Shown: piece after piece, positions 28,427-31,673 of the stretch | How the letters are laid out: every line of letters begins with the position of its first letter | Numbering within the stretch: the first letter of the stretch is position 1 | Notes under the pieces: model-generated | What the model was told of the DNA's origin: nothing | The model's input: the letters and a program-made list of their open reading frames with translations, nothing else | The model's database searches: none | DNA from: Thermoflexales bacterium | GTDB lineage: Bacteria; Chloroflexota; Anaerolineae; Fen-1058 | Assembly (NCBI GenBank): GCA_030834825.1 | Contig: JAUQXC010000430.1 | Location: forward strand, 1-39,243 | Direction: 5' to 3' | Length of the DNA stretch: 39,243 bases | Translations under genes and position numbers: made by a program

Positions 28427-29113
28427 TTATTCGTTAGGACCTTTCATCCGATCTTCTATCTCCCAAATGTGATCGAGGACATGCCAGGCCTCCCGGCGAA
28501 CAAAGTAGCGTGGTGACCAGCGTTTACCACCACGCGGCCCGTATGGGGCGATCTCGCCTCGGGCCGAGGCCTTCAAGGTTTTCAGAATGGCCTGGCGGGT
28601 TCGCTCCAGGGACTCAGACTGCGACACCTTTCCGCCTAGCTGCGAGAGATAACCCTTCTCAGCCCCAAGCACGTGCTCAGCGACTCCGGCGAGAGTTCGC
28701 CCGCCACCCCGCGGACCTGTGCGCAAGGTCTTGCCTTCGGCCAGCTCAACCGCCGCATCAAACGCTCGCCAGCACGCTTTCAATATCGCCTGCAGGCGAT
28801 GCAGCTCAGCATCATCCAGCGGTTGTGCATCGCCAGCCGGGGCCATATCAGGCGCGCCGAAGTCCGTGGTCGCATTACCTTTCAAATGGTCCACGACGAC
28901 GAAAGCCGAGACATCGTTGGGCGGTTGAAAGCCCAACCGCGCCGGGCGCAGAACGCGCGCATAGCGCGGACCATACTCAAAGAGAGCCTGGAGCGCGCCG
29001 GCTTCATCCCGACCCACGCGGCACCAGCCCGGCCAATCGAGCGCTGCTGCAAATGTACGGCGGTCTCCCACTTCCAGGTAGACTTTGAGCTTGTTCGTCA
29101 ATTTACGATTCAT
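28427..29113 (-). CDS. DinB-like-domain protein
   Basis: Internal start MNRKLTNKLKVYLEVGDRRTFAAALDWPGWCR; C-terminal AGVAEHVLGAEKGYLSQL...REAWHVLDHIWEIEDR is DinB-like. Confidence 0.65.
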   Translation of the reverse strand: MNRKLTNKLKVYLEVGDRRTFAAALDWPGWCRVGRDEAGALQALFEYGPRYARVLRPARLGFQPPNDVSAFVVVDHLKGNATTDFGAPDMAPAGDAQPLDDAELHRLQAILKACWRAFDAAVELAEGKTLRTGPRGGGRTLAGVAEHVLGAEKGYLSQLGGKVSQSESLERTRQAILKTLKASARGEIAPYGPRGGKRWSPRYFVRREAWHVLDHIWEIEDRMKGPNE

Positions 29114-29400
29114 TCTCGCTCCTTGCGTTGGGATCCGGATCACTTCCCAACCATCGAGCGTCACTCTCCAGAGAGAAACTCGATCTCCAGGAATGAATTT
29201 ACTTTGTGATGCCCACACCTAACTTACATGGCCTTTTTCATCCAGGCGCTGGACTTTGATCAGCGCCCATCAGAGGACCTGATGGTATACGGGATTGTGT
29301 GTAAAATCGTTAGCCCGCAGTTCAACTGCGGGGAATCTACACAATTTTTGGCAAACTGCAGAGGACCTTTCGTCCCGCGCTCAACGAACAGCAGACCCCG

Positions 29401-30684: not shown

Positions 30685-30909
30685 GCAACCTCCTGAAAAT
30701 GAATGAATATGAGAAGATCAACTGCCTGACCCCATGCGCTTGTCGCTTTCCTGTGTGTGCAGCCCCTTTATAGCATTCTTTGCCAGTTACAACAAACTTC
30801 GCCCAGATAAGCCGAACAAAGAATTCGGACAACAATTCAGATCCCATTTTGCTAGCGCGACGAGTAAACAAAACCGCCCGTGAATCTGAATTCACGAGCG
30901 GCTTTTCTG

Positions 30910-30983
30910 TCGGGGCGGCCGGACTTGAACCGGCGACCCCTCGCTCCCAAAGCGAGTGCGCTACCGGACTGCGCTACGCCCCG
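30910..30983 (-). tRNA. tRNA-Pro (anticodon TGG)
   Basis: Reverse strand cggggcgtagcgcagtccggtagcgcactcgctTTGGGAgcgaggggtcgccggttcaagtccggccgccccga: acceptor CGGGGCG/CGCCCCG, anticodon stem CTCGC/GCGAG, T-loop GGTTCAAGTCC. Confidence 0.95.
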
Positions 30984-31006
30984 AAATTACTGTAATCTTC
31001 AAAGGC

Positions 31007-31098
31007 ATGCGCTACTCCCATACGGCTGCGCTACGCCCCGAAATTACTTCATGAATTTTTGAAAGTGCACTACTTCCTACGGCTCTGCTACGCCCCGA
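31007..31098 (-). repeat. Two tandem 5'-partial copies of tRNA-Pro (copies 31007-31041 and 31065-31098)
   Basis: Reverse strand tcggggcgtagcgcagccgtatgggagtagcgcat and tcggggcgtagcagagccgtaggaagtagtgcac versus tRNA tcggggcgtagcgcagtccggtagcgcac; exact 57-bp spacing of the ends (30984, 31041, 31098). Confidence 0.85.
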
Positions 31099-31099
31099 A

Positions 31100-31540
31100 T
31101 CACTTCAGATCCTTATACCAACCCTGTTCTCTTGCCGTTTTTCTTCGATGACAATTTGCGCACCGTACTTCACACTTGTTAATTTCATCGTACAGCATTG
31201 TTAGTGAAGAAGCGCTACTCACCATCCGCGAAATGTTGCTATGCTTAGAGCCTGTCACTTGATCAAATTCCAAACACGTTGGATCGTTTTCTCCACAATC
31301 TACGCACGGATGACTTTTGAGATAATCGTACAGTGTTTGACGCAGTTGTTTGATTTGTTGTTTTCTGCGCTGCGCCGCTTTGTTGCAGTAATAGGCATGC
31401 TTATGTTGATACTGTAACCGGGAAATCTCTCGAAAACAATCCTTGCAATAAGAGTGACGCCGATGCTTACTTTGCTCTTTCCATGAAAACTCTGTCAGCG
31501 GCTTCACTTTGCCACAACGAGTGCACTTCTTGGTCTCCAT
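31100..31540 (-). CDS. HNH endonuclease with N-terminal zinc-ribbon
   Basis: METKKCTRCGKVKPLTEFSWKEQSKHRRHSYCKDCFREISRLQ ... HPCVDCGENDPTCLEFDQV ... EINKCEVRCANCHRRKTAREQ. Confidence 0.87.
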   Translation of the reverse strand: METKKCTRCGKVKPLTEFSWKEQSKHRRHSYCKDCFREISRLQYQHKHAYYCNKAAQRRKQQIKQLRQTLYDYLKSHPCVDCGENDPTCLEFDQVTGSKHSNISRMVSSASSLTMLYDEINKCEVRCANCHRRKTAREQGWYKDLK

Positions 31541-31673
31541 GGCGGCATGGATTGTACCTTGTCGATCCACTTCGGTCAAGCAGGCTTTACCGCGCCGATC
31601 ATGAACGACGAATCGGCGCACGCCGGTTCCCGAGTGCCGCCTGTGGCTGCCGTCCGATCCGTGTCCAAAAATT

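Follow-up and report, generated by a model that had tools for sequence, protein, structure and literature searches.

Genes of one HNH endonuclease-like family appear to behave as free-standing genes of homing-type nucleases and to invade tRNA genes, overall a new form of homing-endonuclease behaviour of which the bacterial locus described here would be a decayed example. Comparison of sequences shows two modes of entry. In the clean mode (mode a), the HNH gene enters the short spacer immediately upstream of a tRNA gene and uses the transcription unit of that tRNA. In the second mode (mode b), an HNH gene together with a complete tRNA of the same anticodon enters the anticodon arm of the resident tRNA gene, leaving a 5' and a 3' half-tRNA as relics. 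In the window (the whole stretch of 39,243 nucleotides that was analysed, one contig of a draft assembly of an 8-Mb draft genome), the HNH gene would have entered by mode a, between the promoter of a tRNA-Pro gene and a pre-existing 5'-tRNA relic, the relics being most likely older scars of mode b. Taken as a whole, this explanation is judged reasonably probable from the comparison of sequences.

The components of the locus all lie on the minus strand and are arranged, in the order in which that strand is read, as follows:

31551 to 31579, minus strand: tRNA-Pro promoter (TTGACC-17 nt-TACAAT), now 5' of the HNH ORF; from sequence reading and relatives
31100 to 31540, minus strand: HNH endonuclease-like ORF of 146 aa, P0001 (ATG at 31540, TGA at 31102-31100); from the PHROG match and AlphaFold2
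31043 to 31099, minus strand: copy 3, a putative 5'-tRNA-Pro relic plus spacer, abutting the HNH stop, with a degraded hairpin (z -1.0)
30986 to 31042, minus strand: copy 2, a putative 5'-tRNA-Pro relic plus spacer, with a hairpin fold (z -2.0)
30909 to 30983, minus strand: intact tRNA-Pro(UGG), called by both ARAGORN and Rfam (67.6 bits)
30866 to 30903, minus strand: terminator-like hairpin 3' of the tRNA-Pro; from sequence reading

The earlier note on this DNA had described a tRNA-Pro with a 57-bp array of 5' partial copies abutting an HNH gene, and this arrangement is confirmed. A 23-nt block, CTGCGCTACGCCCCGAAATTACT, is repeated perfectly at 30969 and 31026 and as a 70% copy at 31083, in steps of 57 and 57, and the HNH stop codon directly abuts copy 3. 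The copy ends given as 31098, 31041 and 30984 have the right spacing, but the positions are 1 nt off. Elsewhere in the window the block is absent, the remaining matches to its 16-mer core all carrying 4 mismatches. The -35 and -10 elements 5' of the HNH ORF are the tRNA-Pro's own promoter, which is conserved in three relatives. No tRNA relic is seen upstream of the HNH gene in the window, and no 3' tRNA relic downstream of the tRNA-Pro. A search of the genome for its own tRNA-Pro isoacceptors returned GGG, CGG and a single UGG, which is the tRNA-Pro of the window. A group I intron in this tRNA was considered and rejected, as Rfam found only a tRNA there. ARAGORN also calls a tRNA-Trp at 28934-29023, which lies inside an ORF (28427-29218, minus strand), lacks Rfam support and is probably false.

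The similarity of the copies to the tRNA spans the acceptor 5' strand and the D-stem and possibly runs on into the anticodon region, an extension that is not significant for copies 2 and 3 (p about 0.2) or for the copy of the relative G001 and reaches p 0.03 for that of G003. Copies 2 and 3 and those of G001 and G003 have a D-loop of 14-15 nt in common, which the real tRNA does not have and which relates the copies to each other. Copy 2, whose orthologues are the single copies of the relatives (loci L012 and L013), is identical to copy 3 at 31/57 ungapped positions, the 3' parts having diverged. Against shuffled sequences, the G001 and G003 copies form strong hairpins (z -3.5 and -3.7), in which the 5' strand of the copy pairs with a CTCTGAA- or TTTTCGA-like segment downstream; the window copies fold more weakly, and the 5' half of the present tRNA shows no such fold (z about 0). 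With four sequences to hand, the hairpin may be fortuitous, may have a function, or may have been selected because it disarms a tRNA fragment in the leader.

The HNH protein (P0001) matches PHROG 2255 (phrog_2255, E 6.2e-31, residues 4-148) and contains two N-terminal Cys pairs and a C-terminal HNH motif. Its AlphaFold2 model has a pLDDT of 95.8. Sequence searches of Pfam and the PDB yielded no useful assignment, and a Foldseek search of the model against the PDB gave no significant match, with weak matches to HNH proteins such as Cap5 and VcaM4I. The first catalytic His, present in 27/27 other aligned homologs (LEFDH), is a Gln in the window protein (LEFDQ), so that the set of HNH catalytic residues is incomplete; Asn129 and His131 are kept. 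Due to the loss of this His, the protein is probably inactive and its gene decaying, though the ORF is open. Homing genes are expected to degenerate after fixation.

The comparison within the family covers five genomes, and three of the four relatives were compared at the tRNA-Pro(UGG) locus itself. The window HNH protein is absent from all four, and the HNH-free tRNA-Pro loci that the earlier note had proposed to look for are found in G001, G002 and G003. The promoter element, TTGACCGAA..CAAGGTACAAT, lies 7 nt before a GTTCGG that belongs to the partial copy in G001 and G003 and to the tRNA in G002. Thus, in G002 the promoter is followed by 7 nt and then by GTTCGGGGCG, which is the tRNA itself. 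In G001 (same genus) and G003 (same family) the promoter and 7 nt are followed by GTTCGGAGCG of one partial copy and then by a complete tRNA-Pro, and the relic therefore occupies the exact position of the G002 tRNA, 7 nt past the -10 element. The relic-bearing genomes share a tRNA-Pro with anticodon and T stems unlike those of G002. A pattern search for 5' tRNA-Pro doubling among 396 genomes of the class returned only the window's genome (G000), G001, G003 and one unrelated palindromic repeat. The latter, in G266 (L267), is a tandem palindromic GTAGCGCAGGCC..GGCCTGC repeat that is not tRNA-related. In two species, fragments resembling the 3' part of tRNA-Pro lie past the terminator of a tRNA-Pro(GGG) (L002, about 1634-1677; L016, about 1612-1650) and may be integrase scars.

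It had been suggested that the HNH gene itself gave rise to the partial copies. Since one copy is present with the same tRNA-Pro and the same promoter in two HNH-free relatives, an outcome that the earlier note had itself listed as refuting its reading, the window HNH is probably not their maker. The simplest order of events would be that the relic came first, and that the HNH gene then entered the 7-nt spacer in the window's lineage, where a second copy also arose. It would be less parsimonious for G001 and G003 each to have lost the HNH gene and regained a perfect spacer. Nested invasion, in which successive insertions push the relics upstream, was set aside for the window on the ground that the HNH-free relatives have a single relic at the exact promoter spacing.

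Homologs of the HNH gene are strongly associated with tRNA genes. tRNAs are nearby in 6/6 of the first homologs read, and at L005, L006, L007 and L009 the ORF stops inside the tRNA or within about 10 nt of its start. A set of 215 distinct copies was selected from genomes, phages and viral contigs for their similarity to the query; of these, 103 have a tRNA on the same strand within 100 nt and 13 have one on the opposite strand within 300 nt; many of the viral copies are related, and these counts are not counts of independent events. About half of the copies have no detected tRNA close by. The commonest junction (17 copies) places the HNH stop exactly at tRNA nt 8-10, the conserved U8A9G10. No comparable flush junctions are seen at thirty generic PF01844 HNH loci of the same class. 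A lack of tRNA association among homologs, named in the earlier note as what would refute a homing-like insertion, is thus contradicted, and insertion beside tRNAs by this family is borne out by these associations and by pairs of empty and occupied sites.

Several further features of the family loci deserve mention. In two genomes of the window's class (G183 and G300; L102 and L106), the HNH stop lies inside a tRNA-Met with a group I intron in its anticodon (Rfam RF00028), and a second HNH gene lies between tRNA-Pro and tRNA-Gly, a possible case of collaborative homing. Inverted repeats surround the HNH start codon or ribosome-binding site at L055, L035, L092 and L096; hairpins that sequester the ribosome-binding site are known from T4 homing endonucleases. 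Long proteins (230-530 aa) are encoded at L008, L225 and L228-L235, and several of them consist of two or more tandem HNH units. A 392-kb phage contig (L035, about 1850-1925) may carry a circularly permuted tRNA gene: a 3' half (..GGTTCGAGTCCAACCCCCTCC) comes before a 5' half (GGAGGGGTAGCTCAG..), and the acceptor strands of the two are perfectly complementary.

Clean entry is seen in pairs of empty and occupied sites. EC6 (Felixounavirus) has a tRNA-Gly, the spacer AAATTA|AT and a tRNA-Thr without an HNH gene, whereas FelixO1, Ro111lw and pEC-M719 carry the HNH gene at the bar; FelixO1 has no relic, and its tRNA-Thr differs from that of EC6 by one base. In bacterial chromosomes, the HNH gene lies directly 5' of tRNA-Met in G170 and G015 and is missing upstream of tRNA-Met in the genomes with which they were compared (G073 and G050, respectively). 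The arrangement in the window is of this kind, as in FelixO1: the HNH gene lies between the -10 element and the tRNA-like copy 3, with its stop codon abutting the latter. A clean-mode insertion is thereby supported for the window HNH.

The second mode is seen in two pairs of phages, Bonray and Wally and Sushi23 and Peebs, which differ by about 540-600 bp that comprise an HNH gene and a complete tRNA. In Wally a tRNA-Lys(CTT) is intact. Bonray has the first 29 nt of this resident tRNA, a 543-bp insert with a different, complete tRNA-Lys(CTT) and the HNH gene, and then the last part of the resident, of which 21 nt from the anticodon arm and variable region are lost. Similarly, the tRNA-Thr(TGT) of Peebs is intact, and in Sushi23 it is split after its first 43 nt by an insert that carries a complete tRNA-Thr(TGT) and the HNH gene, beyond which the 3' half follows; the flanks are identical and 9 nt are lost. 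Mildred21 and PacManQ look like a further case, for tRNA-Arg(UCG), the phages being only 85% alike there. The Mildred21 tRNA annotated as Phe(gaa) (L257, 1937-2012; loop CTTCGAA) may be an Arg(UCG), and it sits at the position of the PacManQ tRNA-Arg(UCG). Joining the flanks in silico restores a tRNA with the anticodon of the inserted one at four loci (L055, Lys; L215, Glu; L050, Val; L052, Thr), against a mean of 0.3 and at most 1 in 20 controls with swapped flanks. Both tRNA halves can be recognized by eye at L053, L183 and L047, and a 5' remnant at L174 and L030. 5'-half relics lie upstream of 11/104 HNH copies and of 1/57 other tRNAs, which is nominally significant (p 0.035), and the 3' halves sit downstream. 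The insertions, their positions and the replacement by a tRNA of the same anticodon are thus shown for the family at the level of sequence. The earlier note had proposed cleavage in the tRNA 5' region, which is not the best account of those loci where relics were formed, since their breakpoints lie in the anticodon arm. In the window, the relics are all 5' ones and lie downstream of the HNH gene; with no relic 5' of this gene and no 3' relic, the locus does not present the full signature found in Bonray and Sushi23.

The relics of the window would be either scars of an older invasion or products of tandem duplication. Scars of an earlier split-and-replace event, whose HNH gene has since been lost, are the most likely origin of these old copies, which the HNH-free relatives have in common with the window. 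This is supported by the relic at the original promoter and by the tRNA-Pro stems unlike those of the relic-free G002; it is weakened by the missing 3' relic and by the absence of the HNH gene from G001 and G003, and because the relics are HNH-free in these two relatives, their link to an HNH gene is drawn by analogy. A plain tandem duplication of the 5' part of tRNA-Pro, in which no nuclease had a role and the HNH gene landed later before a tRNA-like sequence, is possible and yet rather unlikely. It would account for the HNH-free single copy in two relatives, for the second copy of the window being exactly one 57-bp unit off and for the lack of a 3' relic. However, phage relatives of the HNH gene leave exactly such 5' halves, the difference in tRNA-Pro stems between relic-bearing and relic-free genomes is what tRNA replacement predicts, and copies 2 and 3 are poorly alike across the 57-nt unit.

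Alternatively, copy 3 might be donor tRNA sequence that arrived together with the HNH element, copy 2 being an older relic. Flush HNH-tRNA junctions are typical of the family, the window HNH stop abuts copy 3, and copy 3 has diverged from copy 2; nevertheless, the unusual long D-loop common to copy 2 and the relics of the relatives suggests a local origin, and a donor origin is considered unlikely. The 5'-tRNA copies could also be functional leader hairpins, for example for tRNA processing or for blocking mispairing with the tRNA 3' half. The strong folds in G001 and G003, compared with the present tRNA 5' half, are in favour of this, as is the 3' side of the closing stem, which varies by genome yet still pairs with TTCGGAG. 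The fold is nonetheless weaker in window copy 2 and lost in copy 3, and the four sequences contain no double compensatory change, so that a function of this kind appears distinctly improbable. As for the RNase P-like processing decoys suggested in the earlier note, the hairpin fold of the copy in the relatives is the one observation in their favour. Least of all would the copies be att duplications of a lost genomic island, a reading with a very slight chance. Integrases often use tRNA genes, and it is on this general knowledge that the reading draws. Neither a duplicated 3' tRNA end nor an island between the copies is seen here: what is duplicated is the 5' end and D-arm, and the copies follow one another at 57-bp intervals upstream of the tRNA, leaving no cargo of integrase size between them.

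Returning to the preferred reading of tRNA-invading HNH genes, the nuclease would cut the resident tRNA gene in the region of the anticodon arm, and repair would then copy the HNH gene and its adjoining tRNA from the donor. The diverged replacement tRNA would maintain viability and protect the genome from being cut again. In its broadest form, the proposal is that widespread mobile modules of an HNH gene and a spare tRNA break tRNA genes at the anticodon arm and put diverged tRNAs of the same anticodon in their place, as a natural cleave-and-rescue drive that acts on RNA genes in phages and bacteria, and that the window is a repeatedly invaded bacterial locus whose half-tRNA relics record earlier rounds. 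This broader claim could equally well prove right or wrong.

Among known systems, the closest parallel to the supply of a replacement is found in fungal mitochondria, where mobile ORFs of Allomyces atp6 and of Glomus atp6, atp9, cox2 and nad3 carry a replacement gene end (PMC3630166). In both cases a free-standing endonuclease ORF in an essential gene supplies a foreign substitute, and a fragment of the native gene persists as a relic. By contrast, the mitochondrial elements concern protein genes, LAGLIDADG or GIY-YIG enzymes and hybrid C-termini, and here an HNH gene is accompanied by a complete tRNA of the same anticodon that it brings into tRNA genes of prokaryotes or phages. T4 SegB is a free-standing GIY-YIG homing gene among tRNA genes, for which a tRNA intergenic target is listed (PMC2988022; SegB amplification, PMC13096335). 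Like SegB and other free-standing phage homing endonucleases, the genes described here lie among tRNA genes and would promote inheritance of the tRNA region; the HNH modules split and replace a tRNA, which the available excerpts do not describe for SegB. The anticodon region of a tRNA is also the homing target of a known intron-encoded enzyme (compare the intron-bearing tRNA-Met of L102 and L106), but that enzyme relies on splicing, and the HNH modules have no intron and would rescue function by a spare tRNA. The window protein is a family match to the phage HNH endonucleases of PHROG 2255, an entry that records no tRNA association; unlike these phage members, the window copy is encoded on a bacterial contig, and its first HNH histidine is missing. 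Searches of the open-access PMC literature, with hits assessed mostly from titles, abstracts and passages, found no description of a module of HNH gene and replacement tRNA.

Homing genes usually spare the host by residing in introns, inteins or intergenic regions. Destroying a tRNA while providing its substitute, as these modules would do, is a different solution. The Bonray/Wally and Sushi23/Peebs pairs make this model directly testable in laboratory phages. If true, it would account for some of the unusual tRNA arrays, split tRNAs and divergent isoacceptors of phages, would link HNH genes to tRNA turnover, and would provide a natural counterpart of engineered cleave-and-rescue drives.
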